64,000 nt of DNA from the NCBI GenBank assembly GCA_022842165.1, contig JALHQC010000007.1, positions 1 through 64,000 on the forward strand, in the 5' to 3' direction. This document shows positions 13,977 through 61,059 of the stretch, one piece after another. The translations under genes were made by a program, and so were the position numbers. Every line of letters begins with the position of its first letter. Within the stretch, counting starts at the first letter, position 1. This DNA comes from a bacterium (GTDB taxonomy: Bacteria > Pseudomonadota > Alphaproteobacteria > Rhizobiales > Aestuariivirgaceae). The notes beneath the pieces were generated by a model, which saw only the letters and a list, made by a program, of their open reading frames with translations, ran no database searches and had not been told where the DNA came from.

Positions 13977-14026
13977 TCGAATTCAATCTTCTGGCAAGCC
14001 CCGGAAAGCGCAAAAGAGAGCCTGAC

Positions 14027-35102: not shown

Positions 35103-36539
35103 TTAGCCCAAGGCGGCGAGTGCCGACTTCGCCGCCACAAGATCGCGCACGAAATCATCATAGGCCTGCGCCGAGGCGGACCTGTCCGGCGTGCGCAGGA
35201 TCGATGAGGGGTGAACCGTGATGAAGACCGGCGGCAATCCCTCGGGACGCTCCAGCACGCCGCGCCGCCGCAGAACGCCCGCCGAAACGCCGGTGAGGCT
35301 CAGCGCCGCGGTGCCGCCCAAGGCCACGATGAGGCGGGGCCGGACCAGCTCGATCTCCTTCCGGAGCCACCAGCGGCAGTGCTCCACCTCATGTCTGTCG
35401 GGGCTCTTGTGCAGCCGGACCTTGCCGCGCGGCTCGCATTTGAAATGCTTCACCGCATTGGTGAGATAGGTCTCGGCGCGCAGGATGCCGGCCTCCTTCA
35501 GCGCACGGTCGAGCAATTGTCCCGCAGGCCCCACGAAGGGCCGCCCGTCGAGATCCTCGCGGTCGCCGGGCTGTTCGCCCACAAGCATCAGCCCCGCCTG
35601 CGAATGGCCTTCTCCGAACACCGCCTGCGTGGCGTTGCGGTAGAGCGGGCAGCGGCGGCAAGAGGCGGTGAGGGCGGCGAGCTGTTCGAGCGTGGCGGCA
35701 TCCTCTTCCGGCGGATGAGGCTCAGAAATGCCGCGCGCAGGGATGCGGCGCGATGGCTCCGTCGGGGCTGCCTCGCGCATGCCCGCCGCGCGTTCGGCCG
35801 CATGCGCGACGAGTTCCGGAATGAGTGCGGCCTCCGGCAGGTTCTTCCAGTATTTCGCCGGCATCTCGGCCTTCATTGCCTTCACCTTCAGCCGCGCGGG
35901 GTTGAAGATCGAGGCATAATAGGTCTGCCACAGCCCGATGGTGGGATCGGGCAATGCCGGCGGACGCTCCGACGTCGGCGCGAAGGAAAGCTCGCCTGAT
36001 TCGAAGATTGCCGTCACCAGCGGCGTGGCGATGATCCAGTCCATGTCGGCGAAGCGGCTTGCGAAGAAGGGTGCCGTCAGTTCCGTGATGTTGTGATCGG
36101 GTTCGAACCAGGCGACGAAGCGGCGGCGCGGCGCATCGGCATTGGCCTCGTCCTCGCGGAAGCGCACGAAGGCTTTCATCTTGTGGCAATCGCGGCTGAC
36201 GGCCTTGGTGAGCTGGCGGATGGCGGAGACCAGCGCGTCGCTCTCGTCTTCAAGGAGCGAAGGCTGGCGCTGCAGCCGCCACAGCATGTCATAGAGAAGC
36301 GCGAAGCGCTGCGGGTCGCGGTGGCAGATCGCCCGCTGTGCAGAATCGACGAAGGCGCCCGGCACCATGATCCTGGCTGCCGGAGGATCGGCAGTCAGCG
36401 CCTCGCCAAAGAGGCCGGATTCAGCACCTTCTTCCGACCACGAAATGAGCTGCGGTTCGACGCCGAGTGCCACGAAGCTCCGCGCCGCGTTGCGCCACGC
36501 TGCGAAGCTTCCCGTCAGCGGTATCGATTGCCGGTACAT
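35103..36539 (-). CDS. UdgX-family uracil-DNA glycosylase with N-terminal DUF4130 domain
   Basis: A 478-residue two-domain protein. Residues 1 to about 250 match the DUF4130 type found beside radical SAM repair proteins (FRFREDEANADAPRRRFVAWFEPDHNI). Residues about 280-478 form a family-4-like uracil-DNA glycosylase of the UdgX class. Four Fe-S cysteines are plausible (CRRCPLY and others), motif A is GEQPGDREDLDGRPFVGPAG, and motif C is VHPSSILR. The loop reads GKVRLHKSP near residue 376, keeping the His that in UdgX bonds covalently to the abasic sugar. The start overlaps the upstream radical SAM stop (TGATG). Confidence 0.88.
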   Translation of the reverse strand: MYRQSIPLTGSFAAWRNAARSFVALGVEPQLISWSEEGAESGLFGEALTADPPAARIMVPGAFVDSAQRAICHRDPQRFALLYDMLWRLQRQPSLLEDESDALVSAIRQLTKAVSRDCHKMKAFVRFREDEANADAPRRRFVAWFEPDHNITELTAPFFASRFADMDWIIATPLVTAIFESGELSFAPTSERPPALPDPTIGLWQTYYASIFNPARLKVKAMKAEMPAKYWKNLPEAALIPELVAHAAERAAGMREAAPTEPSRRIPARGISEPHPPEEDAATLEQLAALTASCRRCPLYRNATQAVFGEGHSQAGLMLVGEQPGDREDLDGRPFVGPAGQLLDRALKEAGILRAETYLTNAVKHFKCEPRGKVRLHKSPDRHEVEHCRWWLRKEIELVRPRLIVALGGTAALSLTGVSAGVLRRRGVLERPEGLPPVFITVHPSSILRTPDRSASAQAYDDFVRDLVAAKSALAALG

Positions 36540-37774
36540 CAGAACAGCGTCAATTGCTCGGGCGGCGGCGCGAAGCGTTCGCGGAGATGGGCGGAATCGG
36601 TAAGTGCGCCGGGCGACCACCCGGGGAGGGTGATGAAGGGCCTGGCCTTCGCGGCCCGTGCGCCCAGCCGCAGCAGATCGTCATAGGCGAGACGCTTCTG
36701 ACGCCGGGCAGAAAGAATGCGCGCAACGCAGCGCGTTCCGAGCCCCGGCACGCGCAGCAGCAGTTCGCGGGGTGCGGTGTTGATGTCGACCGGAAACATT
36801 TGCCGGTTGGCAAGCGCCCATGAAAGTTTCGGATCGAGCGCCAGATCGAGCATACCGCCAGGCGCCGCGCTCACGATTTCCGTGGGCGAGAAACCATAGA
36901 AACGCATCAGCCAGTCGGCCTGATAAAGCCGGTGTTCGCGCAGCAGCGGCGGCTGGACCAGTGGCAGGCTCTTCGAGGCATCGGGAATGGGCGAGAAGGC
37001 CGAATAATAGACCCGCTTCATGCCATAGCTGCCATAGAGAGACGCGCTGCGGCTGAGAATTGTGGCATCGCTGCTCTGGTCCGCCCCGATGATCATCTGC
37101 GTGCTTTGCCCGGCCGGCGTGAAATGCCGCACCTTGCGCGACAAGGCCGAAGGTTCGCGGTGATCATCGATAGCCGACCTGAGCGAGGCCATGGATTTGC
37201 GGATGCCCGTCGGGCTCTTGTCGGGCGCGAAGCGTTCGATCGCCTCGTCGCTCGGCAATTCGATGTTGATCGACAGCCGGTCGGCATAGAGCCCGGCTTC
37301 CTCGATGAGCGCGTGCGCTGCGTTGGGAATGGTCTTCAGGTGGATATAGCCGCGAAAGCCGTGATCCTGCCGCAGGCCCTTCGCCACGCGGATCATTTCC
37401 TCCATCGTGTAGTCGGGCGTCTGGATGATGCCGGAGGAGAGAAACAGTCCCTCGATGTAGTTGCGGCGGTAGAACTCGATCGTGAGACGCACGATTTCGG
37501 CAGGCGTAAAACGCGCCCGCTCCACATTGCTCGACACGCGGTTGACGCAATAGACGCAATCGAAGACGCAGAAATTCGTCATCAGGATCTTGAGAAGCGA
37601 AATGCAGCGGCCATCCGGCGCATAGGCATGGCAGATGCCGTTACCCTCGGTGGAGCCAAGCCCGCCGTCTGGCCCCGAGCGGCGCTTCGCCGTCCCGCTG
37701 GAAGCGCAGGACGCATCGTATTTCGCGGCATCGCTGAGGATCGCGAGCTTCTGGATCAGGGTGTGGCGGGCCAT
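36539..37774 (-). CDS. Putative DNA modification/repair radical SAM protein
   Basis: A 411-residue radical SAM protein of the family that partners DUF4130/UdgX proteins. The Fe-S motif is CVFDCVYC (C-x3-C-x2-C) near residues 69-76. A C-terminal helix-hairpin-helix DNA-binding segment is seen in NTAPRELLLRVPGLGTRCVARILSARR. The N-terminus has CASSGTAKRR and GICHAYAPDG. Its chemistry is unknown. It is translationally coupled to the UdgX gene. A LexA-type box lies 2 bp upstream of the ATG, so the pair is probably SOS-induced. Confidence 0.88.
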   Translation of the reverse strand: MARHTLIQKLAILSDAAKYDASCASSGTAKRRSGPDGGLGSTEGNGICHAYAPDGRCISLLKILMTNFCVFDCVYCVNRVSSNVERARFTPAEIVRLTIEFYRRNYIEGLFLSSGIIQTPDYTMEEMIRVAKGLRQDHGFRGYIHLKTIPNAAHALIEEAGLYADRLSINIELPSDEAIERFAPDKSPTGIRKSMASLRSAIDDHREPSALSRKVRHFTPAGQSTQMIIGADQSSDATILSRSASLYGSYGMKRVYYSAFSPIPDASKSLPLVQPPLLREHRLYQADWLMRFYGFSPTEIVSAAPGGMLDLALDPKLSWALANRQMFPVDINTAPRELLLRVPGLGTRCVARILSARRQKRLAYDDLLRLGARAAKARPFITLPGWSPGALTDSAHLRERFAPPPEQLTLF

Positions 37775-37903: not shown

Positions 37904-38578
37904 CTAGTCGATCAGGTCGACGAGAACCCGGTAGGCGCTATCCAGATCGGCGCGCAGTGCCGCTTCCGCCTTCGTCTCGTCGCGGGCGCGCAGCGCATCC
38001 ACCATGTCCTGGTGGTGGGTGTTGGCAACGCTGTAGGAGCCGCCGAGATTGTTGAAGTAAGGGCTGATCTGCAGCCAGAGATTCTCGATGATCGCGACGA
38101 GCCGCGCCGAGCGCGAGGCGCGGTAGATCGAGAAGTGGAAGGCGTGGTTGGCGCGCAGATAGGACTTCACGTCGCCGGCGGCATTGGCTGCTTCCAGCCT
38201 CCGGCATTCCGCTGCAAGCTCATCCAGTTCGGCTTCGCTGATATGGCGCGCCGCCCAGACCGCCGCCAGCGCTTCGACCTCGAGGCGGACATTCCGGAGG
38301 TCGGTGAGCGCCGCACGGCTGAGACTGGGAATGCCGATCGAACGGCCTGAAACGACAGTCAGCGCATTGGCGGCGATCAGCCGCTTCAGCGCCTCGCGCA
38401 CCGGCATGTGGCTGACGCCGCAGGCATCGGCTACCGCCTGGATGGTCACCTGCTTTCCCGGCTCGATCTCGCCGTCGAGGATCATGTCGCAGATCCGCCG
38501 GTAGACGCGGTCCTGCAGCGTCTCGCGATTGAGCGGGATGACTTTCAGGCGGGGCTTGCGGAGCGTGGACTGGGACAT
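37904..38578 (-). CDS. GntR-family regulator, FCD subfamily
   Basis: A 224-residue regulator: winged HTH (TIQAVADACGVSHMPVREALKRLIA) followed by an FCD domain (RANHAFHFSIYRAS, ANTHHQDMVDALRARDE). The ATG at 38576-38578 is chosen because residues upstream show no similarity. It is divergent from the sugar-binding-protein gene that opens the 38.7-48.0 kb locus. A TTTGATCAAA palindrome lies in the shared gap. It probably represses that locus and responds to a sugar acid or pathway intermediate. Confidence 0.88.
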   Translation of the reverse strand: MSQSTLRKPRLKVIPLNRETLQDRVYRRICDMILDGEIEPGKQVTIQAVADACGVSHMPVREALKRLIAANALTVVSGRSIGIPSLSRAALTDLRNVRLEVEALAAVWAARHISEAELDELAAECRRLEAANAAGDVKSYLRANHAFHFSIYRASRSARLVAIIENLWLQISPYFNNLGGSYSVANTHHQDMVDALRARDETKAEAALRADLDSAYRVLVDLID

Positions 38579-38643
38579 CGCGGCACCTGTTATCGCGTGA
38601 TTTACATCGCGGCAATCCACGCCCGTGAAATTGACCATTGATC

Positions 38644-38653
38644 TTTGATCAAA
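38644..38653. promoter_or_regulatory. Candidate GntR operator palindrome
   Basis: TTTGATCAAA is a perfect 10-bp palindrome, preceded by TTGATC a few bases earlier. It lies between the divergent GntR and binding-protein genes. Short AT-rich palindromes like this fit FCD-type operators. Confidence 0.4.
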
Positions 38654-38737
38654 ACAAGGGGAATAATCCCGGCGCCGCCCCGCGATAAGGCTGTCGAACC
38701 GGCGGGGCGTAACCACTGAACTCTGGGAGGATTCGAG

Positions 38738-39868
38738 ATGAGATTTCTGAAAGGTCTGAAATCACTTGCCGCCTGCACGGCCCTGGCTGCCGGCATCATG
38801 GCAGCCGGCAATACCGCCGGGGCCGCGGACAAGCACAAGATCTTCCTGAGCATGAGCTACATCGGCAATGACTGGCAGGCCGAGGCCGCCAACATGGTCA
38901 AGGCCATGGCCGCTCACAAGAGCATGGTCGACAAGGTGGACCTGCAGGTGCAGGTCGCAGGGCCCAACGCCCAGCGCCAGATCCAGCAGATCAACGCCAT
39001 GGTGCAGGCCGGCGCCGAAGCCATCGTGATTTATCCGATTTCACCCACCGCCCTCAACAGCGTGATCAAGAATGCCTGCGACAAGGGCGTCAAGATCTTC
39101 GCCTATGACGGCGACATCAGCGAACCCTGCGCCCACAATATCTCGATCGACCAGACCGAAGCTGGCCGCGTCACCGCCGAGTGGCTCGCACAGAAGCTGA
39201 ACGGCAAGGGCGACATCGTGATGATCACCGGCGTGCCGGGAACCTCCGTCGACGACCTCCGCACCAAGGCCGCGAAGGACGTCTTCGCAAAATATCCCGA
39301 CATCAAGATCGTCGGCGAGGCCGTCGGCATGTGGAGCCAGGCCGTGGCCCGCACCGAACTCTCGAAGATCACCGCCACCCGCAGCTGGGACCAGATCAAC
39401 GGCCTGTGGACGCAGGTCGGCTGCTACACCGCCAACGCCATGCAGCTCGAATCCGGCAAGACTCCCGAACAGCTTCTGCCCTGCGCCGGGGAAGGCTCGA
39501 ACGGCGGCCGCATCCAGATGCTGCCGGTCGGAACCGAGGTCGAAGGCGCTGCCTCGCCCTATGCGCCGCTCGGCGCGCAGCGCATCTCCTACGCGTCGCC
39601 GCCCTATTCCGGCGCGCTGGCGCTGAAGCTCGCCGTCGCGGCGCTCGAGGGCCAGGACGTACCGAAGCGCGTGACCCTGCCGCTGCCGATCGTCACCAAC
39701 GAGACGGTGAAGCTCTGCAACGAGGGCACATGGGAAGAGATGAAGGCCGGCTGCAATGCCTTCCTGCCCTCGCTCGTCTCGAACCCCGGCTGGTTCGGCT
39801 CGATCTTCTCCGAGCAGACCCCCGAGATCGGCCTCGCCGCCGCGCTCGTCGGCCAGCCCGAACCCTGA
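38738..39868 (+). CDS. Sugar ABC transporter periplasmic binding protein
   Basis: A 376-residue type I periplasmic sugar receptor. The signal peptide covers about residues 1-30 (LAACTALAAGIMAAG, cleavage near AGAAD). The mature start HKIFLSMSYIGNDWQAEAANM, and the central AEAIVIYPISPTALNSVIKNACDKGVKIFAYDGDIS are typical of the RbsB-like group. It is long for the family and Cys-rich (five or more Cys in the mature part). The ATG follows a GGGAGG site. It leads the operon running to 48045. Confidence 0.88.
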   Translation: MRFLKGLKSLAACTALAAGIMAAGNTAGAADKHKIFLSMSYIGNDWQAEAANMVKAMAAHKSMVDKVDLQVQVAGPNAQRQIQQINAMVQAGAEAIVIYPISPTALNSVIKNACDKGVKIFAYDGDISEPCAHNISIDQTEAGRVTAEWLAQKLNGKGDIVMITGVPGTSVDDLRTKAAKDVFAKYPDIKIVGEAVGMWSQAVARTELSKITATRSWDQINGLWTQVGCYTANAMQLESGKTPEQLLPCAGEGSNGGRIQMLPVGTEVEGAASPYAPLGAQRISYASPPYSGALALKLAVAALEGQDVPKRVTLPLPIVTNETVKLCNEGTWEEMKAGCNAFLPSLVSNPGWFGSIFSEQTPEIGLAAALVGQPEP

Positions 39869-39883
39869 TCGCCGCGATCCCGG

Positions 39884-39906
39884 TGGGGTGGCGGAGTGCC
39901 ACCCCA
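39884..39906 (+). other. Intercistronic stem-loop after the binding-protein gene
   Basis: TGGGGTGGC (39884-39892) pairs with GCCACCCCA (39898-39906) around a GGAGT loop, in the gap before the ATPase gene. There is no T-run. It parallels the hairpin between frcB and frcC and probably stabilises the upstream mRNA. Confidence 0.6.
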
Positions 39907-39956
39907 TCTCTTGCTCTTGCGATGCGTTTCGGCCCCCCGCCAGCGATCGGGAACTC

Positions 39957-41504
39957 ATGACCATGACCACAGGAAGCGCCGGCCCCGCGGTCAGCGTGAT
40001 AGGCGTCCGCAAGGCCTTCGGGCCGACCGTCGCCGTCGACGATGTGTCCTTCGCCATCAAGGCCGGAAGCGTTCATGCGCTGCTGGGCGAGAACGGCGCC
40101 GGGAAATCGACGATCGTCAAGCTCCTCTCCGGCCTGCTCCAGCCCGATGCCGGACGGATCGAAATCAATGGCAGCGCCGTCGCGCTCTCCTCGCCCCGCG
40201 CCGCGCATGCCCAGGGCATCCAGACGGCGTTCCAGGAAATGACCCTGGTGCGCGATCTCTCGGTGCTCGACAACATGATGCTGCCCTACGCGCCGATGGG
40301 CATCACCGGCATGGTCCGCCGGAAACAGGCGCGCGCCGCCGTCGCGCAGCATCTCGGCCGCCTGGGCTTCGCCGTCGATCTCGATGCCGAGGTGGGCCGC
40401 CTCGACCTGGCCCTGCAGCAGAAGATCGAGATCGCCCGCGCCATCTACCGCAATCCCCGGATCCTGCTGCTCGACGAGCCGACCTCGACGCTGTCGGGAG
40501 GCGACGTCGACTGGCTCGGCCGCCTCATCGCCGGCCTCAAGTCGGAAGGCAAGACAATCGTCTTCATCTCGCACCGCATGCGCGAGGTCCGCGCCTTCTG
40601 CGACACGCTCACCGTGCTGCGCAACGGCCAGCACATCATGACGGGGGATGTGAGTGCCATATCCGATGCCGACGTGATCGAGAAAATCGTCGGCCGCTCG
40701 ATCGCGCAGACCTTTCCCCCGCGTCCTGCCGATCCCTCGGTCTTTGGCGAACCCGTCCTCTCGGCGCGGGGCCTGCGGGCCGGAGTGAAGCTCGAGGATG
40801 CGAGCTTCGACCTCCGCAAGGGCGAGATCCTCGGCATCGCGGGCCTGCAGGGCATGGGCCAGCTCGATCTCTTCCTCGCCTGCTTCGGCATGGCGGAGAT
40901 CAAGGCCGGGCATATCCTCGTCGACGGCCAGAAGGCCGCCATCACGTCGCCCGTCGACGCCATGCGGCCCAACATCGGGATCGGCTTCGTGCCCGAGGAC
41001 CGCAAGACCGAAGGCCTTTTCCTCAAGCTCAGCGGCAAGACCAATGCCTCGATCCCGGTCATCGGACGCTTCGCGCCGCACGGCCTCATCCGCGCCGGAC
41101 GCGAGGAAGCCGCCGTCCGCCAGGCCTTCGGCACCGTCGAGGTGAACGAGCGCGCGCTGTGGACGAGGGCCGGCGCATTCTCCGGCGGCAACCAGCAGAA
41201 GATCGCCATCTCGAAGTGGCTGGTGGCGCAGAGCCGCATCCTGCTGCTCTTCGATCCGACGCGCGGCATCGACGTCGGCACCAAGCATGAACTCTATGTG
41301 ATGATGCGCGACTTCACCAATGCCGGCGGCGCGATCCTTTTCCATTCGACCGAGATCCCCGAACTCGTGCACCTCTGCGACCGGGTCCTGGTCCTCTATG
41401 GCGGAAGACTGGCGGCAGAGATCGCCGGCGCCGATCTCACCGAGGGCGCCATCATGCGCCCGGCCCTGGGGCACGACGGCGCCCCTCGCGGAGCCGCCGC
41501 ATGA
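39957..41504 (+). CDS. Sugar ABC transporter ATP-binding protein, two ABC domains (RbsA type)
   Basis: A 515-residue double ABC ATPase. Domain 1 has Walker A GENGAGKST and Walker B ILLLDEPTSTLS, with a degenerate signature (LDLALQQKIEIARAI). Domain 2 has a degenerate Walker A (GLQGMGQLDL) and an intact signature FSGGNQQKIAISKWL. This asymmetry is normal in RbsA-like proteins. Tandem ATGs at 39957 and 39963 are both possible. Its stop overlaps the permease start as ATGA. Confidence 0.92.
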   Translation: MTMTTGSAGPAVSVIGVRKAFGPTVAVDDVSFAIKAGSVHALLGENGAGKSTIVKLLSGLLQPDAGRIEINGSAVALSSPRAAHAQGIQTAFQEMTLVRDLSVLDNMMLPYAPMGITGMVRRKQARAAVAQHLGRLGFAVDLDAEVGRLDLALQQKIEIARAIYRNPRILLLDEPTSTLSGGDVDWLGRLIAGLKSEGKTIVFISHRMREVRAFCDTLTVLRNGQHIMTGDVSAISDADVIEKIVGRSIAQTFPPRPADPSVFGEPVLSARGLRAGVKLEDASFDLRKGEILGIAGLQGMGQLDLFLACFGMAEIKAGHILVDGQKAAITSPVDAMRPNIGIGFVPEDRKTEGLFLKLSGKTNASIPVIGRFAPHGLIRAGREEAAVRQAFGTVEVNERALWTRAGAFSGGNQQKIAISKWLVAQSRILLLFDPTRGIDVGTKHELYVMMRDFTNAGGAILFHSTEIPELVHLCDRVLVLYGGRLAAEIAGADLTEGAIMRPALGHDGAPRGAAA

Positions 41505-43561
41505 AGGCTGCTCCGTCATCATCCGGCGCGCCGGTCGGCCGCCTGCTCGCCAGGCACCGCGGCGTGCTGATCGCGGCGATCGTGTTCCTCGTCCTGCTCG
41601 GAACCGTCGACTTGATCAGCGCCGGACCGCTCACCTATTTCGACATCGCATTCCTGTCGAGCGGCGGCGCCACCTCGGCGCTCGCCGCCATTGGCCAGAC
41701 CATCGTCATCCTGTCGGGCGGATTCGACCTTTCGGCCGGCGCCGTCATCTCGCTCGTGAACGTCGTGCTGGCGCGCTCCATGGACCCCATGGACATGGAA
41801 GCGAGCGTGGTGCTGTGGACCGCCGTGGGGATCGGCATCGGCATGCTGACCGGCGCCTTCAACGGGTTCTTCATCGCCTTCCTGAGGCTTCAGCCCATCG
41901 TGGTGACGCTCTCCACCATGTTCATCATCCAAGGCGTGACGCTGCTGGTGATGGACAAGCCCGGCGGCGCCGTCGCCCCCTCGCTCGGCACCTTCTATCT
42001 GGGTGACGCCGTGACTGGCTGGCTTCCGATGCCGCTCGTCGTCATCGGCGTGGTGCTGCTCGCCTGGCTGTGGCTCAAGAACACCAGGCTCGGCACCGCG
42101 ATCTACGCGGTGGGCAGCGATGCCGACGCGGCCGCTGCTGCCGGGGTGCGCGTCGCCTGGGTCCGCTTCCTCGTCTACGTCATCGCCGGCGGCTGCTACG
42201 GCCTCGCCGGCGTCTTCATCAGCGCGCAGACCGGCAGCGGCGATCCGCTCGTCGGCAACCCCCTGCTGCTGGCGATGTTCGCTGCCGTGGTCGTCGGCGG
42301 AACGAGGCTTGGCGGCGGGCGCGGCGGACCGCTCGGCAGCGCCATCGGCGCCTATATCCTGATGATCGTCGTCAACATCCTGCTCGTGCTCAATGTCTCG
42401 GCCTACTATTCGACCATCGCCGAGGGCGCGATCCTCATCCTCGCCGTTCTTGCCGGGTCGGTTTCGCGGCAGTCGGTGCTGGCCAGGCAACTCCGCATGC
42501 TGGGCACCAGGCTCAGCGCCAGGCAGGCCGGAACGCTGGTCTCGCAGCTCCGCCAGGACGACCGCCGTCTGGCGCTGCAGCGCGATGCAAGGCCGCGGGG
42601 CGCGGCGGAACGGCCCTCCCTGTTCGTGCGCAATGCCGAGATTCTGCGCTACGCGCTTCCCGCCTATATCTGCTTCGTCATCGTGGTGGTGGTGACGCAA
42701 GCCTGGCTTGGAGGCGCGATCCTCAACCCCGGCTACTGGAATTCGCTCATCGTCCTCTCCTGCTTCCTCGCCATCCTGGCGCTCGGACAGGGCACGGTGA
42801 TCCTCACGGGCGGCCTCGATCTCTCGGTCCCCTGGACCATCGGCCTCTGTGGCATCATCCTCGCCGGCATGGTGAAAGGCTCCGACGCGGCCCTCCTCTA
42901 CGCGCTTCCCGCCGTACTGCTGCTCGCCTGCGTGATCGGCCTCGTCAATGGGCTGGGCATCGTCTTCCTCGGCCTGTCGCCCATCGTCATGACGCTCGCC
43001 ACCAACGGCCTTCTGCAAGGCGCGGCGCTGCTCTATTCCAACGGCACGCCCGATGGCTTCTCGTCGCCCATGCTGCGCTGGTTCATGACCGGCAAGATCG
43101 GCGTCTTCGCCCCGGTCGTGCTGTTCATGGCGCTCTTCGTCATCGCCGCCGTGACGCTCCTGGGCCGCACGCCCTTCGGCCGCCGCGTCTACGGCATCGG
43201 CAACGGCGTCAGGGCGGCCGAACTCTCGGGCATCGCGGTCGGCCGCACCCTGGTGCTGGTCTATATGCTCTCGGCGCTGTGCTCCGGGCTGGTGGGCGTG
43301 CTGCTCACCGGCTTCTCCGGGCAAGCGAGCCTCGGCATGGGCGACGATTACCTGCTGCCCTCGATCGCCGTGGTCGTGGTCGGCGGCGCGCTGATCACCG
43401 GCGGGCGCGGCCACTATCTCGGCATGCTCGGCGGCGTGCTGCTGCTGACCGGCCTGCAGACGCTTCTGGCGGGCACCACCCTGCCATACGCCACGCGCGC
43501 GATCCTGTTCGGCCTGGTGGTGCTGGGCGCGGTGATCGCCCTGCGCGACAAGAAGACGTGA
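41501..43561 (+). CDS. Fused double sugar ABC permease (two RbsC domains)
   Basis: A 686-residue protein made of two RbsC-type permease domains in tandem. The first (about 1-330) carries TIVILSGGFDLSAGAVI and MFAAVVVGGTRLGGGRG. The second (about 385-683) carries GTVILTGGLDLSVPWTI and SIAVVVVGGALITGGRG. A charged linker of about 55 residues (RQLRMLGTRLSARQAG onward) joins them. Most related transporters use one 330-residue permease as a dimer, so this fusion fixes a pseudo-heterodimer. Start overlaps the ATPase gene. Confidence 0.9.
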   Translation: MKAAPSSSGAPVGRLLARHRGVLIAAIVFLVLLGTVDLISAGPLTYFDIAFLSSGGATSALAAIGQTIVILSGGFDLSAGAVISLVNVVLARSMDPMDMEASVVLWTAVGIGIGMLTGAFNGFFIAFLRLQPIVVTLSTMFIIQGVTLLVMDKPGGAVAPSLGTFYLGDAVTGWLPMPLVVIGVVLLAWLWLKNTRLGTAIYAVGSDADAAAAAGVRVAWVRFLVYVIAGGCYGLAGVFISAQTGSGDPLVGNPLLLAMFAAVVVGGTRLGGGRGGPLGSAIGAYILMIVVNILLVLNVSAYYSTIAEGAILILAVLAGSVSRQSVLARQLRMLGTRLSARQAGTLVSQLRQDDRRLALQRDARPRGAAERPSLFVRNAEILRYALPAYICFVIVVVVTQAWLGGAILNPGYWNSLIVLSCFLAILALGQGTVILTGGLDLSVPWTIGLCGIILAGMVKGSDAALLYALPAVLLLACVIGLVNGLGIVFLGLSPIVMTLATNGLLQGAALLYSNGTPDGFSSPMLRWFMTGKIGVFAPVVLFMALFVIAAVTLLGRTPFGRRVYGIGNGVRAAELSGIAVGRTLVLVYMLSALCSGLVGVLLTGFSGQASLGMGDDYLLPSIAVVVVGGALITGGRGHYLGMLGGVLLLTGLQTLLAGTTLPYATRAILFGLVVLGAVIALRDKKT

Positions 43562-43574
43562 GGAGAATGACATC

Positions 43575-44381
43575 ATGAGTAACGCAGCGCCGGCATCGGC
43601 GGCGGATTTTATAAGGGGCCTCGCGGGCCAGCGCGTGCTGGTGACGGCCGGCGCATCGGGCATCGGCTTCGCCATCGCCAGCACGCTGTCCGCCCTCGGC
43701 GCCCGCGTCGCGGTCTGCGACGTATCGGAGGAAGCGATCGCGCAGGCGAGGAAGAACCTGCCGGGTCTTCTCGCCTGCAAGGCCGACGTGTCTTCCGAGG
43801 AGGACGTGGACGCCATGTTCAGGGCGGTGGCGCGCGACTTGGGCGGCCTCGATGCGCTGATCAACAATGCCGGCATCGCCGGTCCGACGGGCGGCGTCGA
43901 CGAGATTGCGCCCGCCGACTGGCGGCGCTGCATCGACATCTGCATCACCGGGCAGTTCCTCTGCGCCAGGCTTGCGGTGCCGATGCTGAAGGCGTCGGGC
44001 GGCGGCTCGATCGTCAACATGTCCTCGGCCGCCGGCCGTCATGGCTATGCGTTCCGCACGCCCTATTCCTCGGCCAAGTTCGCCGTCGTCGGCTTTACCC
44101 AGAGCCTTGCCAAGGAACTCGGACCTTCGCGCATCCGCGTCAACGCCATCCTGCCCGGCATCGTGGAGGGTCCGCGCATGGACAAGGTGATCGCCGACCG
44201 CGCGAAGCAGATCGGCATCAGCCACAAGGAAATGGAGGAGCGCTATCTCGAGAAGGTCTCGCTCCGCCGCATGGTGAGCCCCTACGATGTCGCCAGCATG
44301 GTGGCCTTCCTCCTGTCGGACGCAGGCGCGAATGTTTCAGGTCAATCGCTGGGAGTGGACGGCAATGTCGAAGCCCTCTGA
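43575..44381 (+). CDS. Short-chain dehydrogenase/reductase
   Basis: A classical SDR of 268 residues. The cofactor motif is VLVTAGASGIGFAIA, NNAG is present, the catalytic Ser is in SIVNMSSAAG and the YxxxK pair is in TPYSSAKFA. The C-terminal LSDAGANVSGQSLGVDGN is typical. A preference for NAD is suggested by the Asp after the second strand (VAVCDVS). In this operon it probably oxidises the imported sugar or its aldonate. It overlaps the next gene by 17 bp. Confidence 0.9.
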   Translation: MSNAAPASAADFIRGLAGQRVLVTAGASGIGFAIASTLSALGARVAVCDVSEEAIAQARKNLPGLLACKADVSSEEDVDAMFRAVARDLGGLDALINNAGIAGPTGGVDEIAPADWRRCIDICITGQFLCARLAVPMLKASGGGSIVNMSSAAGRHGYAFRTPYSSAKFAVVGFTQSLAKELGPSRIRVNAILPGIVEGPRMDKVIADRAKQIGISHKEMEERYLEKVSLRRMVSPYDVASMVAFLLSDAGANVSGQSLGVDGNVEAL

Positions 44382-45336
44382 GACGGCAGCGGCCAGGACC
44401 GCCATCATCGGTTCGGGCTTCATCGGACGCGCCTGGGCCATCAGCTTCGCGCGGGCCGGCTGCAGCGTGCGTCTCTGGGACCGGGAGGACGGCGCGGCGG
44501 CCAAGGCCATCGGCTATATTTCGGGCGTCCTCGACGATCTCGAAAGGAACGATCTCCTCAACGGACAAGCCCCGGCCGCCGTGCTGGCGCGCATCTCGGC
44601 GGCCGCCACGCTGGAGGAAGCCGTGGCCGACGCCAGCCACGTCCAGGAGAACACGCCCGAGATCCTCGAAGTGAAGATCGAGGTCTTCAAGATGCTCGAT
44701 GCGGCGGCCAGGCCCGATGCCGTGCTGTCGAGTTCGACCTCGGCGCTTCTGCCGTCGCGCTTTACCGCGGGCCTCAAGGGCCGCCACCGCTGCCTCGTCG
44801 TGCACCCGATCAATCCGCCCTATCTCATCCCCGCCGCCGAAGTGGTGCCGGCACCCTGGACCAGCCCCGAAACGGTGGAGCGCACCCGCGCCTTTCTCGT
44901 TGCCGCCGGGCATGCGCCGCTGGTGATGAAGAAGGAACTGGACGGTTTCATCATGAACCGCATGCAGGGAGCACTCCTCGAAGAGGCCTTCCGCCTCGTG
45001 GCCGATGGTTACGCGAGCGTCGAAGACGTCGACAGCGGCATCCGCGACGGGCTGGCGCTGCGCTGGTCCTTCATGGGGCCATTCGAGACGATCGACCTCA
45101 ACGCGCCGGGCGGCATCCGCGACTATTGCGAGCGCTACCAGGGCATCTATTCGAACATCTTCCCGCAGATGCTGCGCCGCGTCGACTGGGCAGGCGAGGT
45201 GATGGACTCAATCGAGCCGGAACGCCGCAAGCGGCTGCCGGCCGAGCAGCTGCAGCAGCGCCAGATGTGGCGCGACAAGAGACTGATGGCGCTTGCCGCG
45301 CACAAGCGGCGCGCCGCGAAGGAGATCGGAAAATGA
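44365..45336 (+). CDS. 3-hydroxyacyl-CoA dehydrogenase-like 3-hydroxyacid dehydrogenase
   Basis: A 323-residue protein of the carnitine dehydrogenase/lambda-crystallin branch. The Rossmann motif is IIGSGFIGRAW, the catalytic-His region is CLVVHPINPPYLIPAAEV, and LRWSFMGPFETIDLNAPGG matches the paralogue at 11263-12201. In carnitine degradation this kind of enzyme makes a 3-keto acid that a BKACE then cleaves. A BKACE is the very next gene (ATGA overlap), so the same logic is likely here on a sugar acid. The ATG at 44365 is inferred from the end of SDR overlap. Confidence 0.85.
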   Translation: MSKPSETAAARTAIIGSGFIGRAWAISFARAGCSVRLWDREDGAAAKAIGYISGVLDDLERNDLLNGQAPAAVLARISAAATLEEAVADASHVQENTPEILEVKIEVFKMLDAAARPDAVLSSSTSALLPSRFTAGLKGRHRCLVVHPINPPYLIPAAEVVPAPWTSPETVERTRAFLVAAGHAPLVMKKELDGFIMNRMQGALLEEAFRLVADGYASVEDVDSGIRDGLALRWSFMGPFETIDLNAPGGIRDYCERYQGIYSNIFPQMLRRVDWAGEVMDSIEPERRKRLPAEQLQQRQMWRDKRLMALAAHKRRAAKEIGK

Positions 45337-46268
45337 CTGTTCCCGCAGGCCGGATCATCATCACCTGCGCCGTGACCGGCGCGATCCACACGCCCACCAT
45401 GTCGCCCTACCTGCCGATCACGCCGGACGAGATCGCGCGGGAAGCGATCGCCGCGGCCGAAGCCGGCGCCGCGATCCTGCATCTTCACGCGCGCAACCCC
45501 GAAAACGGCAAGCCCGACCAGACGCCGGAGGCCTTCGCGCGTTTCCTGCCGCGCATCAAGCAGGCCACGAATGCCGCCATCAACATCACCACCGGTGGCA
45601 GCCCCTACATGAAGGTCGAGGAACGCGTGCTGCCCGCCGCCACCTTCAAGCCCGAAGTGGCCTCGCTCAACATGGGCTCGATCAATTTCGGGCTCTACCA
45701 CCTCGCCGCCAAGTACAAGACCTTCAAGTTCGACTGGGAGAAGCCCCACCTCGAGGCGACGCGCGACCTCGTCTTCCGCAACAGCTTCAAGGATATCGAG
45801 TTCATCCTGAAGACCTGTTACGACAATGGCACGCGCTTCGAGTTCGAGTGCTACGATATCGCGCATCTCTACAATCTCGCGCATTTCGCCGACCGCGGGC
45901 TGGTGCGGCCGCCGTTCTTCGTGCAATCGGTCTTCGGCCTGCTGGGCGGCATCGGCAGCCACCCCGAGGACGTCGCCCACATGAAGCGCACGGCGGACCG
46001 GCTCTTCGGCGACAAGTTCCGCTGGTCGGTGCTGGGGGCGGGCGCCAGCCAGCTCCGCATCGCGGCGCAGGCGGCGGCCCTGGGCGGCAACATCCGCGTC
46101 GGCCTCGAAGACAGTCTGTGGGCCGGGCGCGGCAAGCTTGCGACCTCCAACGCCGAACAGGTGGCGCTGGCCCGCAAGATCGTCGAGGGTCTCGGCATGG
46201 CGGTGGCGACGCCCGACGAGGCGCGCGCCATCCTCGAGCTCAAGGGCGCCGACAAGGTTTCATTCTGA
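45333..46268 (+). CDS. Beta-keto acid cleavage enzyme (BKACE, DUF849)
   Basis: A 311-residue TIM-barrel enzyme of the BKACE family. These cleave a 3-keto acid with acetyl-CoA to give acetoacetate and a CoA ester. The zinc-binding HxH is His50 and His52 in AILHLHARNPENGKPDQ, and the catalytic-Glu region is NIRVGLEDSLWAGRG. It follows the 3-hydroxyacid dehydrogenase directly. Family members act on 3-ketoadipate-like acids, dehydrocarnitine and 2-deoxy-3-ketoribonate; the last fits this sugar context best. Confidence 0.9.
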   Translation: MTVPAGRIIITCAVTGAIHTPTMSPYLPITPDEIAREAIAAAEAGAAILHLHARNPENGKPDQTPEAFARFLPRIKQATNAAINITTGGSPYMKVEERVLPAATFKPEVASLNMGSINFGLYHLAAKYKTFKFDWEKPHLEATRDLVFRNSFKDIEFILKTCYDNGTRFEFECYDIAHLYNLAHFADRGLVRPPFFVQSVFGLLGGIGSHPEDVAHMKRTADRLFGDKFRWSVLGAGASQLRIAAQAAALGGNIRVGLEDSLWAGRGKLATSNAEQVALARKIVEGLGMAVATPDEARAILELKGADKVSF

Positions 46269-46279
46269 GGAGCCCTCCC

Positions 46280-47152
46280 ATGCTGCGCATCGAAGTCTTC
46301 AGCGATACCCGCGATGCCCTCGGCGAAGGGCCGCTGTGGGATGACCGCGAGCAGCGGCTCTACTGGATCGATTCCTACGCGCCCGCCGTTTATTCCGCCG
46401 ATGCCGATGGCGGAAACCGCAAGCGCTGGCCGGTGCCGGAGCCCATCGGCTCGCTGGCGCTGCGCGAGAAAGGCGGCGCCATCCTGGCATTGCGGAACGG
46501 TTTCTACACATTGGATTTCGAGACGGGCGAAGTCGCGCTCATTGCCGAGACACAACCCGGCGAGCTCACCCCGCGCATGAACGACGGCAAGGTCGACCGG
46601 CAAGGCCGCTTCGTTGCCGGGTCGATGGATTTCGAAGAGCGCAATCCGGTCGGCAAGCTGTTCCGGCTCGATAGCGATCTTTCGGTGCATCAGCTGGACC
46701 ACGGCATCATCTGTTCGAATGGCCCGTGCTTCAGCCTCGACGGCAGGACGCTGTATTTCGCCGACACCGGCAAGAAGGCGATCTACGCCTATGACTACGA
46801 CACGGCGAGCGGCAATGTGAGATCGCGCCGCGTCTTCGCCAGTTTCGAAAATCAGCGCGGGCTCCCCGATGGCGCAACCGTCGATTCCGAGGGTTGCGTG
46901 TGGAGTTGCGAAGTCTATTCCGGGCGGCTCATCCGCTTCGATCCCGATGGCGTCGTCGATCGCATTATCGGCCTGCCGGTGCAGTCGACAACCAGCCTCA
47001 CTTTCGGCGGCGCCGGTCTCGACATTGCCTACGTCACATCGATGGCCCGTCCCTACAACGGTGCCTATCATCGCGAACGCGAAGCCGGCTGCGTGTTCGC
47101 CGTCCATGGGCTGGGCGTGCGCGGCGTGCCCGAGCCAAGATTCAAAGGTTGA
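46280..47152 (+). CDS. SMP-30/gluconolactonase family lactonase, copy 1
   Basis: A 290-residue six-bladed propeller lactonase. Divalent-metal ligands expected in SMP-30 are visible: Glu in LGEGPLWDD, Asn in CSNGPCFS and Asp in LPDGATVDSEG. The segment RMNDGKVDRQGRFVAGSMD is a family block. It hydrolyses sugar lactones to aldonic acids, the step after the sugar dehydrogenase. ATG at 46280 follows the BKACE stop by 11 bp. Copy 2 follows within 14 bp. Confidence 0.9.
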   Translation: MLRIEVFSDTRDALGEGPLWDDREQRLYWIDSYAPAVYSADADGGNRKRWPVPEPIGSLALREKGGAILALRNGFYTLDFETGEVALIAETQPGELTPRMNDGKVDRQGRFVAGSMDFEERNPVGKLFRLDSDLSVHQLDHGIICSNGPCFSLDGRTLYFADTGKKAIYAYDYDTASGNVRSRRVFASFENQRGLPDGATVDSEGCVWSCEVYSGRLIRFDPDGVVDRIIGLPVQSTTSLTFGGAGLDIAYVTSMARPYNGAYHREREAGCVFAVHGLGVRGVPEPRFKG

Positions 47153-47166
47153 GACAGGAGAACGGT

Positions 47167-48045
47167 ATGAAGATCGAAGTTCTGGTCGATGTGAAGACGA
47201 CGCTGGGCGAGGGCCCCTTGTGGGACGTCGAGCAGCAGCGCCTCTACTGGATCGATGCGTCCGGCATGCGGGTCTTCCGCGCCACCGCCGGCGGCACCGA
47301 GATCCGCGCCTGGGACATTCCCTCCCGCGTCGGCTCGATCGCCATCAGAAAGGACGGCAGGGGCGCCATCTGCTCGCTCGCCAAGGGCTTTCACGCGCTC
47401 GACTTCGCAACCGGCGACTCGACGCTGATCGCCGAGATCGAGCCGGAACGCCCCACCAACTGGATCAATGACGGCAAGGTCGACCGCAGGGGCCGCTTCT
47501 TCGCCGGCACCATGGACAGCCAGGAGTCCGGCCCCAACGGCGCGCTCTACCGGCTCGATCCGGATTTCAAGGTCACCAAGGTCGAGTCCGGCATCATCGT
47601 GTCGAATGGCCCGTGCTGGAGCCCGGACGACAAGGTCTTCTACTTCGCCGACTCCTGGTCCGGCGAAATCTGGGCCTATGACTACGACATCGCCCGGGGC
47701 ACGCTCGCCAACCGCCGCACCTTCACCAAGGTGAACACGGCCAATGGCGGCGCGGCGGACGGTTCGACGGTCGATGCCGAAGGCTGCCTGTGGAACGCCA
47801 ATGTCTATGACAGCAGGCTTTACCGCTATACGCCCGACGGCAAGGTCGACCGCGTCATCGAAATGCCGGTAAAGAAGGTAACCTCCGTGATGTTCGGCGG
47901 CCCCAACCTCGATGTGCTCTACGTCACCTCGATGGCGAGGCCTCCGCTGCCGCGCTTCCCCGGCGACGGCGTGTTGCGCGGCAGCCTCTTCGCCATCACC
48001 GGACTTGGCATCAAGGGCATCCCGGAACCCCGCTTCGGGGCATGA
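47167..48045 (+). CDS. SMP-30/gluconolactonase family lactonase, copy 2
   Basis: A 292-residue paralogue of the preceding lactonase, with the same metal ligands: LGEGPLWDV, VSNGPCWS and AADGSTVDAEG. NWINDGKVDRRGRFFAGTMD is present. The two differ enough (for example in the loop around IPSRVGSIAIRKDG) that different lactones or anomers are possible. It is the last gene of the sugar locus. The island attachment site starts about 65 bp after its stop. Confidence 0.9.
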   Translation: MKIEVLVDVKTTLGEGPLWDVEQQRLYWIDASGMRVFRATAGGTEIRAWDIPSRVGSIAIRKDGRGAICSLAKGFHALDFATGDSTLIAEIEPERPTNWINDGKVDRRGRFFAGTMDSQESGPNGALYRLDPDFKVTKVESGIIVSNGPCWSPDDKVFYFADSWSGEIWAYDYDIARGTLANRRTFTKVNTANGGAADGSTVDAEGCLWNANVYDSRLYRYTPDGKVDRVIEMPVKKVTSVMFGGPNLDVLYVTSMARPPLPRFPGDGVLRGSLFAITGLGIKGIPEPRFGA

Positions 48046-48326: not shown

Positions 48327-49559
48327 ATGCCGAAAGTAAGAATAATCAAGACGGTTGTCGATTCTGCAAAGCCAAGGTCTGCTGACTGGTTTCTTTGGGA
48401 CAGTGAATTAATAGGATTTGGGCTCAAAATATCGGAGGGCGGCCGCAAAAGCTATGTTTGCCAGTACAGAACGGCGGGGGGCCGTTCAGGAGTCACAAGG
48501 CGGTTGACAATAGGTCCACACGGATCGCCATGGACAGTGGAAACTGCCCGATCTGAGGCGAAGAGAATTCTTGGGAGGGCAGCTAACGGTCAAGACCCCG
48601 CGCAAGAGAAGCAAGCCGTCAGGAAGCGACTATCAGTTACCGAACTCTGCGATCTATATGTTCAACATGGATGTGGAACGAAAAAAGCCAGCACCTTGGC
48701 GACCGACCGAGGTCGGATAGAGCGTCATATTAAACCATTGATTGGGAAATTAAAGGTGCCAGATGTTACAAGGGCGGAAATCAAACGATTCTTGCAGGAC
48801 GTTGCTGAAGGCAAGACGGCCACTGACATCAAGACTGGTAAGCGCGGTCGCGCTATAGTACGTGGCGGTCAAGGTACGGCGACTCGAACTGTAGGACTTC
48901 TCGGCGGTATTTTTTCTTACGCAGTCGACTGCGATTTGATCAAATTTAGTCCCGTCATTGGAGTGAAGAGGTATACCGACAAAAGGGGCACCAGGTATCT
49001 CAACGAACAGGAATTGTTCGCTTTAGGTGCCGCTCTCCGAAGAGCTGAGATTGAAGGTGAAAACCCTTCAGCGTTGGCTATCCTCAAGCTACTTGTTTTC
49101 ACTGGTGCGCGCAAAGGTGAGATCGAGCAATTGACTTGGCATGAAGTGGACTTTTCTACGGGGTATTTGAACCTCATAGACTCCAAGACTGGACAGAAAG
49201 CGATTCCACTCAATACCGGGGCCATGCAAGTGCTGCGAAATCAGTGCCGGATCGAAGGAAACAAGTATGTCTTCCCAGCTTATCGTGGTGACGGACACTA
49301 CGAGGGAACTCCCAAAGTCTGGCAGCGTCTTCGACTTCTGACTAATCTCGCTAACGTACGTCTCCACGATCTCCGCCATAGCTTCGCCAGCGTTGCTGTT
49401 TCTAATGGGGCAAGTCTACCAATCATCGGTGCATTGCTTGGTCATGCTCACGCTGCCACGACCCAACGTTATGCTCATTTAAGCGACGATCCTCTACGAG
49501 CAACTAGCGAAGCTGTAGGAAATCATATTACGGCGATCATGGAAGGGACTAAAGAATAA
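48327..49559 (+). CDS. int: Tyrosine integrase of a tRNA-targeting island
   Basis: A 410-residue P4-type integrase. It has an N-terminal arm-binding domain (about 1-95, ELIGFGLKISEGGRKSYVCQYR), a core-binding SAM-like domain and a catalytic domain. The catalytic residues are Arg in TGARKGEIEQL, HDLRH, GH in LLGHAHAATTQ and nucleophile Tyr in QRYAHLSDD. All are intact. The gene begins 172 bp from the tRNA remnant and its codon use is more AT-rich than the core genes. It should catalyse insertion at tRNA-Arg. Confidence 0.95.
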   Translation: MPKVRIIKTVVDSAKPRSADWFLWDSELIGFGLKISEGGRKSYVCQYRTAGGRSGVTRRLTIGPHGSPWTVETARSEAKRILGRAANGQDPAQEKQAVRKRLSVTELCDLYVQHGCGTKKASTLATDRGRIERHIKPLIGKLKVPDVTRAEIKRFLQDVAEGKTATDIKTGKRGRAIVRGGQGTATRTVGLLGGIFSYAVDCDLIKFSPVIGVKRYTDKRGTRYLNEQELFALGAALRRAEIEGENPSALAILKLLVFTGARKGEIEQLTWHEVDFSTGYLNLIDSKTGQKAIPLNTGAMQVLRNQCRIEGNKYVFPAYRGDGHYEGTPKVWQRLRLLTNLANVRLHDLRHSFASVAVSNGASLPIIGALLGHAHAATTQRYAHLSDDPLRATSEAVGNHITAIMEGTKE

Positions 49560-49632
49560 CAAGTGCTCATTATTATAATAAAGAGCATCCGGAAAGCCTG
49601 ACGAGTTTGGAAATCATGTAAACGTAGCAGGA

Positions 49633-50325
49633 ATGCTAATGCGTCACAGTACGAAACCACCACTCGGTGCAAATGACGAAGAGCTCTACGAGTTTGAAAA
49701 CCTTGCCGATGAGTTTGAGAACCAGCAGACGTTGGAAAAATACTTAGAACTGCGGCAACAGTTCCCCTCTGGTGATATATCACTGGATCGATTTTCCGAC
49801 CTATTGACGCTCACGAATGTCGATGACGAGCTGCATCGTCATGATATATTCTACGGCGACATTAGTAGGGCGGCAGGAGGTGATGCCAGTGCAATGGATC
49901 GATGCGCAGTGTCAATTATCAAGGCGCTCTGCATTCGGCGGAACATTGAACTGACTGGCAAAACCCATGTCACAAGTCGTGATCTTGCCATTTCGGACGA
50001 GCTAATAAATTTCAGCCTCGCGATTATACTCGAATCGTCAGCAAGGCATCAAACAGCATTGCCAACATCTGTGGCACTTTTAATTCGCGAACACTATCTT
50101 GGCGGCCCGCATACTAAACGATTCCAAAAACATGAGGCCAGAATAGATCGCGCTGAGGCTGTTTGGATCGGCTCTGAAATCAAGAAATCCGAAAAGGTTC
50201 CTACGTTTCGGGGAATTGCGAAGAAGATGGGTGTGGCGCCGAGCACCGTGAGTCGATGGTTTCCTGGTAATGAATTGGCAATTGCTATTGAAAGACATGA
50301 CAATATGTGGGCTGATCGTTCTTAG
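49633..50325 (+). CDS. Hypothetical protein with C-terminal HTH
   Basis: A 230-residue protein without a recognised family. The N-terminal half is acidic (EELYEFENLADEFEN). The C-terminus has a clear helix-turn-helix (FRGIAKKMGVAPSTVSRWFPGNEL), so it probably binds DNA. Two ATGs (49633, 49639) are close together. The stop TAG lies within the CTTAG target duplication of an IS5-family element, so the reading frame was not changed by insertion. It is AT-rich like the integrase and may regulate island genes. Confidence 0.6.
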   Translation: MLMRHSTKPPLGANDEELYEFENLADEFENQQTLEKYLELRQQFPSGDISLDRFSDLLTLTNVDDELHRHDIFYGDISRAAGGDASAMDRCAVSIIKALCIRRNIELTGKTHVTSRDLAISDELINFSLAIILESSARHQTALPTSVALLIREHYLGGPHTKRFQKHEARIDRAEAVWIGSEIKKSEKVPTFRGIAKKMGVAPSTVSRWFPGNELAIAIERHDNMWADRS

Positions 50326-50407
50326 TGTCCATCCGGGATGTTTTCGAATCGCATGAATCGGTAATGATTTTCAGCGGACGGCGTGGTTTGGCGAGGAGTG
50401 AGCCGCC

Positions 50408-51246: not shown

Positions 51247-51372
51247 ACTTCCCGGATGGACTCTTAGGAAGTCACTGTTGCAGCAAGTTTGTGATGCGCA
51301 ACATTGGCTCTGCGGCCTAGGGATTGTTCATTGTCCGGTATGGTCCGGAGTGAGCAAGATTGGTCCTTAGCA

Positions 51373-51618: not shown

Positions 51619-51621
51619 ATT

Positions 51622-51900: not shown

Positions 51901-51997
51901 ACAATATCCCATTGTGCTACGAAGGGTCTTCCCGTTTGTCCGTGCCTGTCACTTGTTGTCCTGCGCCGTCATCCCATGTCCACAAAAGGAGCCTGAA

Positions 51998-58503: not shown

Positions 58504-58512
58504 GCAGTCCTC

Positions 58513-59673: not shown

Positions 59674-59688
59674 GGTCGTACCCTTTCT

Positions 59689-60372: not shown

Positions 60373-60381
60373 CTAGGCCCC

Positions 60382-61047: not shown

Positions 61048-61059
61048 CGAACCTGCTTC

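Follow-up and report, generated by a model that had tools for sequence, protein, structure and literature searches.

What does a bacterium take up and break down with an operon that joins a sugar-class ABC transporter, two dehydrogenases of different families, a beta-keto acid cleavage enzyme (BKACE) and two lactonases? The question is raised by positions 38738-48045 (+) of a 64,000-nucleotide stretch of alphaproteobacterial DNA (hereafter the window; contig JALHQC010000007.1 of assembly GCA_022842165.1, Aestuariivirgaceae), where eight genes lie on the same strand and neighbours overlap or are at most about 85 bases apart. They encode the substrate-binding protein (SBP), ATPase and permease of a CUT2 transporter, a short-chain dehydrogenase/reductase (SDR), a lambda-crystallin-type 3-hydroxyacid dehydrogenase (HCDH), BKACE and two SMP-30 lactonases (SGL1 and SGL2), a list that the first-pass annotation of this DNA had correct by open reading frame positions, Pfam and NCBIfam. 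With moderate confidence we propose that this GntR-controlled operon serves to import a 2-deoxypentonate, or the corresponding lactone, and to degrade it oxidatively. The route would be a variant of oxidative deoxyribonate degradation that is equipped with an ABC transporter and has an additional C3 dehydrogenase. The oxidation of a 2-deoxy sugar acid followed by BKACE cleavage had been anticipated in the first-pass annotation and is supported, but the roles given there to the individual enzymes are probably wrong.

In the pathway proposed here, the CUT2 transporter would import a lactone-like or furanose-like compound, and SGL2, together with SGL1 where present, would open the lactone, as expected from the lactonase of Pseudomonas simiae. 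By orthology, the SDR would act on a C3 hydroxyl of D configuration, such as that of 2-deoxy-D-ribonate. HCDH, judged by the stereochemistry of its family, would act on the opposite epimer, with an L-configured hydroxyl at C3, and the two oxidations would yield one kind of 2-deoxy-3-keto acid. BKACE would then use acetyl-CoA to convert this acid to acetoacetate and glyceryl-CoA. Outside the operon, glyceryl-CoA would pass to glycerate by an enzyme like 3-hydroxyisobutyryl-CoA hydrolase (HIBCH) or by CoA transfer, and glycerate kinase would form 2-phosphoglycerate; genes for these two last steps lie beside some orthologous operons.

Identity of the SDR

In the first-pass annotation the SDR was a sugar C1 dehydrogenase, but it groups with the deoxyribonate dehydrogenases. 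The purified SDR of P. simiae oxidised deoxyribonate and not deoxyribose, the oxidised position being left undetermined in that study, and in P. bryophila H281DRAFT_00641 and 00644 were important on deoxyribonate; the enzymes of the two species are 50-60% identical to each other (PMC6365646). A cluster of Paraburkholderia largidicola (L100; the loci compared here carry L numbers) has the gene order AraC-BKACE-MFS-FabG-like SDR-SDR, which is that of H281DRAFT_00640-00644, and the window SDR is 55.6% identical to its SDR in the 00644 position and 31.7% to its other SDR. Published primers give the ends of the P. simiae protein PS417_07245 as MSVLQRL and GNVEYL (PMC6365646), and the window SDR ends in DGNVEAL. 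An ending of the form N[VM]ExL was present in 91 of 120 rows labelled as the window SDR type (duplicates included) versus 0 of 31 other SDR rows, and the solved structure 5unl, a close relative, has the tail GNVEVL. In a tree of 95 SDR rows the window type (33 rows, SH-aLRT 95) and the P. bryophila type (11 rows, 99) fell within one clade of 66 rows (99), with the FabG-like SDR outside it. By identity to L100, GNVExL tail and clade support, the SDR thus belongs with the deoxyribonate 3-dehydrogenases.

One orthologous operon, L205, consists of genes for SBP, ATPase, permease, SDR, BKACE and SGL2 without HCDH, and no HCDH was found at E<=1e-20 anywhere in its genome, which is 99% complete. HCDH is therefore dispensable. 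Because of the grouping with deoxyribonate dehydrogenases and the L205 operon, it is most likely the SDR that makes the BKACE substrate, which also departs from the earlier claim that HCDH was the sole C3 dehydrogenase and a different solution to this step, as the usual solution is present too.

Conservation of the operon

When genomes were scanned with HCDH, most of the best 80 of 571 confirmed loci showed the same operon. Of 182 loci fetched, 123 were analysed, 54 with the complete CUT2 set and 69 without it. BKACE and an SDR of the broad clade to which the window SDR belongs were found in 54/54 complete loci each, and so was HCDH, although most of these loci had been found via HCDH, which makes its count partly a product of the sampling; a genome may also be represented twice. 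At least one lactonase was present in 52, two lactonases in 20, and a match to the GntR regulator (at least 33% identity) in 53 of the 54. Orthologues of the SDR and HCDH occur in Mesorhizobium and Phyllobacterium, among others.

Because most loci had been sampled through HCDH, the test was repeated starting from the binding protein. Scanning the class (385 genomes) and the order (297 genomes; the window's own genome is counted in both) gave 27 further places, and 20 SBP-found loci were informative (at least 65% identity and enough contig). SDR and lactonase were present in all 20, BKACE and HCDH in 19 each, and SDR and BKACE are linked, as in the deoxyribonate pathway, in 19 of the 20. The association of the operon genes is not due to chance. 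Another SBP-found place (L206) was interrupted by a contig end, and L194 has the operon without BKACE, with a BKACE at 68% elsewhere in its genome. Around more distant relatives of the binding protein (L187-L191, 44-47% identity), no BKACE, HCDH or SDR of the operon type was found in the stretches fetched. L207 (5986-13141), where a related CUT2 transporter (SBP 55%) is accompanied by an AraC-like regulator, a P. bryophila-like BKACE and an HCDH other than that of the operon, has no SDR and is possibly a sister pathway.

The second dehydrogenase

HCDH had been called carnitine-dehydrogenase-like. It passed the NCBIfam model PRK06129 (479.5 bits, cut-off 347), whereas its scores on two carnitine models were 192.4 (cut-off 592) and 184.9 (cut-off 414), so far below the cut-offs that the carnitine dehydrogenase label was ruled out. 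Among solved structures it is closest to lambda-crystallins (3ado, E 2.4e-69), with which it aligns over nearly the whole length, including the Ser, His-Glu, Asn and Arg motifs, residues that we take to be catalytic. On alignment and motifs it is a member of the lambda-crystallin group, which is known as L-gulonate 3-dehydrogenase; it differs in being bacterial and in lying in a BKACE operon.

Known members of the HCDH family act on L-configured 3-hydroxyls (L-gulonate, L-carnitine, L-3-hydroxyacyl-CoA), while FabG-like SDRs act on D-configured 3-hydroxyls, and 2-deoxy-D-ribonate is D at C3. From this opposite family stereochemistry we propose that the pair handles both C3 epimers, and HCDH probably serves the other one. 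An extended form of this proposal is more tentative, and we hold it as a possibility on the doubtful side: the pathway would be stereo-convergent, SDR (D) and HCDH (L) letting one BKACE consume both C3 epimers of 2-deoxypentonates, a LarA-type racemase in one relative salvaging the wrong glycerate enantiomer, and the HIBCH homologue being the missing glyceryl-CoA hydrolase.

Among the 69 loci lacking a complete CUT2 set, SDR, HCDH and BKACE occur together without an SMP-30 gene in 22, some of these on short contigs and one (L148) repeating another (L049). Clusters with TRAP transporters (Sagittula) hold the three genes with the SDR tail CGNVETL, and clusters with branched-chain-type ABC transporters (Cereibacter, Sagittula, Microvirga) hold them with other SDR subtypes. 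Substrates there may differ, but for sets without a lactonase two acid dehydrogenases fit better than a sugar C1 dehydrogenase. In Mesorhizobium (L010, L018, L029, L037 and L039) the SDR-HCDH-BKACE set likewise stays together without the CUT2 transporter.

HCDH-BKACE pairs also occur with no SDR, lactonase or CUT2 transporter nearby (L054, L061, L064, L074, L075, L077 and L084). Ten neighbours from L043, L061, L074, L075 and L084 included no common one that names a substrate; in L075, branched-chain-type ABC genes lie directly before HCDH. The window itself has a second lambda-crystallin-type dehydrogenase at 11263-15562, 48% identical to HCDH of the operon, together with an aldo/keto reductase and a GntR/FCD regulator. 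This set is divergent from a gene of the galactarate/altronate dehydratase family and is probably another sugar-acid cluster.

BKACE, lactonases and expected products

The catalytic Glu of BKACE15 (E171) aligns with E172 of the window BKACE, in FEFECYD, and the protein is 55.8% identical to the BKACE of L100. It passes the NCBIfam model NF053538 (3,5-dioxohexanoate:acetyl-CoA acetone transferase) with 537.1 bits against a cut-off of 430, and the same holds for all six BKACEs that were tested from other clusters, L100 with 512.7 and L098 with 560.6 bits. Since BKACEs of deoxyribonate-type clusters pass too, the name is not specific enough to tell the substrate.

SGL1 and SGL2 are 50.3% identical, and SGL1 is absent from most Mesorhizobium operons. 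SGL2 starts with MKIEVLVD and its orthologues in L048 and L169 with MRIEVLVD; the published primer for PS417_07255, the deoxyribonolactonase of P. simiae, corresponds to MRIEVLV (PMC6365646). SGL2 is also 62.3% identical to the lactonase of L158, a cluster of P. simiae type. It is thus a candidate orthologue of the P. simiae deoxyribonolactonase, the likeness being that of the first residues and of the L158 lactonase.

The genes around orthologous operons bear on the size of the product. Glycerate kinase lies beside L090, L091 and L205, in L205 adjoining the GntR gene, and a HIBCH homologue beside L062, L076, L090 and L091. In the plasmid-borne operons L090 and L091 the homologue is directly beside the kinase; in Ancylobacter (L062, L076) it stands without it. 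The HIBCH homologue of Rhizobium ruizarguesonis is WSH62008.1. An acetoacetate CoA-transferase lies beside L067, L080 and L090 and a thiolase beside L080 and L090. L090 also has a LarA/B/C/E-type set, and glycerate racemisation by LarA relatives has been published (PMC11770544). Glycerate kinase, HIBCH homologue and acetoacetate-activating genes together point to glyceryl-CoA and acetoacetate as products, fitting a five-carbon acid. As GapMind for carbon sources lists the glyceryl-CoA hydrolase of deoxyribonate oxidation as unknown (PMC9007349), the HIBCH homologue is a concrete candidate for this enzyme. In Ancylobacter a putative cyclase (PF04199) is found with the HIBCH homologue near BKACE and SGL (L062:11602-14657).

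Transporter and imported compound

The ATPase is AraG/XylG/RbsA-like but scores below the cut-offs of the 25 NCBIfam families listed out of 187. The SBP is strongly conserved, with column identities averaging 76% in an alignment of 24 sequences and 77% in one of 21. Its structure model (pLDDT 83.8) has 4pe6 as the best solved fold (25% identity), followed by ribose-, arabinose-type and other carbohydrate-binding proteins at about 20%; as many sugar-binding proteins match at 15-25% identity among the 50 matches listed, the ligand cannot be read from the model. With the SDR placed at C3, no C1 dehydrogenase is left in the operon, so the first-pass claim of a complete pathway from the sugar falls away. 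It would follow that the importer carries a lactone or aldonate, or that C1 is oxidised elsewhere. The cargo may be a 2-deoxy sugar acid or its lactone.

Comparison with known pathways

The locus tags PS417_07240-07265 of P. simiae WCS417 run GntR, SDR, BKACE, lactonase, MFS, MFS (PMC6365646). The window operon shares with them GntR, SDR, BKACE and a lactonase with the SGL2-type start (primer-derived in P. simiae), but no MFS gene for deoxyribonate uptake is found in it and a CUT2 ABC transporter takes the place of the two. It adds the lambda-crystallin-type dehydrogenase, and orthologous operons often have a second lactonase. The published account of the deoxyribonate clusters does not mention HCDH and describes a molybdenum deoxyribose dehydrogenase as important only in P. 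simiae (PMC6365646); no such molybdenum enzyme is found in the window operon. As the rest of the published clusters varies too, the exchange of MFS for CUT2 can be seen as a pathway variant. In the P. bryophila cluster, SDR and BKACE are alike (compared through the like-ordered L100), but AraC and MFS are found there and no lactonase gene, and the second dehydrogenase is a FabG-like SDR instead of HCDH. The parallel with deoxyribonate drawn in the first-pass annotation, an oxidative route to a 2-deoxy-3-keto sugar acid that BKACE cleaves, is supported by these shared genes (SDR and BKACE in both types, the lactonase in the P. simiae type) and by the glycerate kinase beside three orthologous operons.

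L158 has the P. simiae order, GntR (divergent)-SDR-BKACE-SGL-MFS-MFS, and Caballeronia grimmiae (L098) has GntR-SDR-BKACE-MBL lactonase-SBP-ATPase-permease-HCDH-SGL, which ties the P. simiae-type and CUT2-type arrangements together. The Lichenicoccus locus L080 combines CUT2-HCDH-BKACE-SGL with CoA-transferase, thiolase and an SDR of the P. bryophila type (59%), whose tail is DGNVEYL. Among 398 genomes of the window's phylum and 295 of the order of G234, no deoxyribonate cluster demonstrably from Pseudomonas was found, and the link to P. simiae therefore rests on published primers, gene order and P. bryophila-type clusters. In searches of open-access literature for the combination seen in this operon, the listings, abstracts and passages showed no form with an ABC transporter or HCDH, which does not imply its absence from print.

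Carnitine degradation via dehydrocarnitine is similar in that two dehydrogenases of opposite hand (L and D) converge on one beta-keto acid, and bacteria with both L- and D-carnitine dehydrogenases have been described (PMC2131755). In contrast, its substrate and transporter differ, as do the lactonases, and its BKACE is of another subfamily. The window's own genome has on contig C24 (L160:7978-11934) a BKACE, a carnitine-dehydrogenase-like enzyme (358 bits, cut-off 414), an SDR of the 66-row clade and an acyl-CoA dehydrogenase. The set is likely a cluster of the carnitine type that includes a candidate for a D-specific dehydrogenase.

Weight of the evidence and alternative explanations

Several observations weigh against the 2-deoxypentonate pathway as proposed. 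HCDH is hardly a luxury, as it is retained in 19 of 20 SBP-found operons, and HCDH-BKACE loci without SDR exist (L043, L051, L054, L061, L064, L074, L075, L077, L084, the fragmentary L092 and L207). The window SDR is only 55.6% identical to the proxy of the assayed enzyme, the comparison with P. simiae and P. bryophila is one of primer-derived ends and matching gene order, the tree leaves the branching order of the window-type and P. bryophila-type clades unsettled, and L158, despite its gene order, has a different SDR tail. Four of the 54 complete loci (L053, L059, L062 and L076) have an SDR from a different subclade (47-49%, other tail) that is not adjacent to HCDH, and L062 and L076 are two of the four loci with the HIBCH homologue; the branched-chain-transporter clusters likewise carry other SDR subtypes (46-50%). 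Accessory genes are rare among the 54 (HIBCH 4, CoA-transferase 3, glycerate kinase 2, thiolase 2, LarA 1) and come from few lineages. In the window's genome, the one glycerate kinase gene of the PF13660 type (G000:C55) is unlinked and a search for PF02595 glycerate kinase gave no match; the HIBCH family gives only partial matches, so that the glyceryl-CoA step there would be carried out by something else, for example CoA transfer. Lastly, CUT2 is a sugar-class transporter, for which a free sugar would be no less suitable than an acid.

The last point agrees with the scheme of the first-pass annotation, in which the transporter brings in a free 2-deoxy sugar for the SDR to oxidise at C1, the lactonases yield the aldonate, HCDH alone acts at C3 and BKACE cleaves. 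Lactonases and CUT2 transporter together would suit a cyclic sugar, the SDR scores on the glucose 1-dehydrogenase model, if below its cut-off (201.0 versus 215 bits), we take lambda-crystallin to be an aldonate 3-dehydrogenase, and ten HCDH-BKACE loci without SDR exist (the fragmentary L092 included). We nevertheless regard this scheme as rather unlikely, since the SDR is of the deoxyribonate dehydrogenase type, of which the P. simiae enzyme is inactive on deoxyribose, since the SDR stays with BKACE and SGL where HCDH is missing (L205), and since the 22 sets of SDR, HCDH and BKACE have no lactonase and some of them TRAP transporters.

The same chemistry could also serve a 2-deoxyaldonate of four or six carbons, a non-sugar 3-hydroxy acid or a 3,5-dioxohexanoate-like substrate. 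The NCBIfam name of the BKACE would agree with this, as would the TRAP and branched-chain-type transporters beside SDR-HCDH-BKACE sets elsewhere, but the name does not discriminate, as the L100 and L098 scores show, whereas glycerate kinase, the HIBCH homologue and LarA near orthologues indicate a C3 acyl-CoA, and lactonases and CUT2 transporter argue for a sugar acid; such a substrate appears improbable. That HCDH has another job, acting at another carbon, on a CoA ester or on some ordinary aldonate (L-gulonate, for example) that is not passed on to BKACE, is a still weaker candidate, which we think very unlikely. P. bryophila-type clusters too have a second dehydrogenase, suspected of deoxyribonyl-CoA activity (PMC6365646), and L205 manages without HCDH. 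On the other side, the HCDH gene overlaps that of BKACE by 4 bases and adjoins it in clusters without SDR, and the lambda-crystallin-type motifs suggest a free acid.

Operon layout and control region

The features of the operon and its control region are given in Table 1. The SDR and HCDH genes overlap, as do those of HCDH and BKACE.

Table 1. Positions in the window of the operon genes, the divergent regulator and the putative operator.
Feature	Position	Strand	Remarks
GntR/FCD transcriptional regulator	37904..38716	-	divergent; PF07729 and PF00392; likelier start 38578 (MSQSTL...)
Putative operator TTTGATCAAA	38644..38653		94-85 bases before SBP start
Periplasmic substrate-binding protein (SBP), CUT2 type	38738..39868	+	PF13407
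CUT2 ABC transporter ATPase, two ABC domains	39954..41504	+	PF00005, two stretches
CUT2 permease with two fused permease domains in a single chain	41501..43561	+	PF02653, two stretches
SDR, proposed 2-deoxyaldonate (deoxyribonate) 3-dehydrogenase	43575..44381	+	sequence comparison
HCDH, 3-hydroxyacid dehydrogenase of the lambda-crystallin type, proposed to be specific for L-3-hydroxy groups (other C3 epimer)	44365..45336	+	PRK06129
BKACE, proposed cleavage of 3-keto acid with acetyl-CoA	45333..46268	+	PF05853, 356.5 bits
SGL1, SMP-30 lactonase 1	46280..47152	+	PF08450
SGL2, SMP-30 lactonase 2, candidate orthologue of P. simiae deoxyribonolactonase	47167..48045	+	start residues; identity to L158 lactonase

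The operator of the P. simiae cluster is by prediction GTGATCAC (PMC6365646). It was not found with up to one mismatch between the regulator and the SBP gene of the window, where the exact palindrome TTTGATCAAA is located instead. Two copies of TTTGATCAAA occur in the window versus 0.02 expected, the second within an integrase gene, and of 56 regions preceding the genes of SBP homologues, 31 contained it, the window counted; duplicates and a few non-orthologous SBPs are among the 56. The core TGATCA common to TTTGATCAAA and GTGATCAC may be a coincidence.

The region 48327-53836 has an integrase gene directly after the operon, transposase open reading frames like those of insertion sequences, recognised by eye, at 50408-51246, and a second integrase-like gene at 51914-53836. 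The G+C content, 66.6% in the operon, drops to 56.3% beyond it, and the end of the operon is a mobile-element boundary.

Other features of the window

At 3477-11270 a ROK-family gene, a CUT2 binding protein and permease and an ABC ATPase are followed by genes for E1 alpha and E1 beta and for an E2-like protein in which a lipoyl domain is fused to an alpha/beta hydrolase; the E1/E2 set looks like an acetoin-dehydrogenase-type complex beside a sugar transporter. A radical SAM protein lies beside a DUF4130/uracil-DNA-glycosylase-family protein at 35103-37774, and two enolase-superfamily (mandelate racemase-like) genes with a family 3 solute-binding protein are found at 57376-62941 (-).

Implications

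These results extend the deoxyribonate pathway, which has been studied by experiment in four bacteria, to an ABC-equipped form that is common and occurs in many Alphaproteobacteria. Caution is needed with the NCBIfam name '3,5-dioxohexanoate' that is attached to the BKACEs of these clusters. The HIBCH homologue provides a testable gene for the orphan glyceryl-CoA hydrolase step. Several carriers of the ABC-equipped form come from soil or root nodules, and the question is raised which extracellular 2-deoxy sugar acids or lactones are common enough to select for an ABC importer. In case the stereo-convergent reading is true, diastereomeric 2-deoxypentonates would be real nutrients in soil and the rhizosphere.

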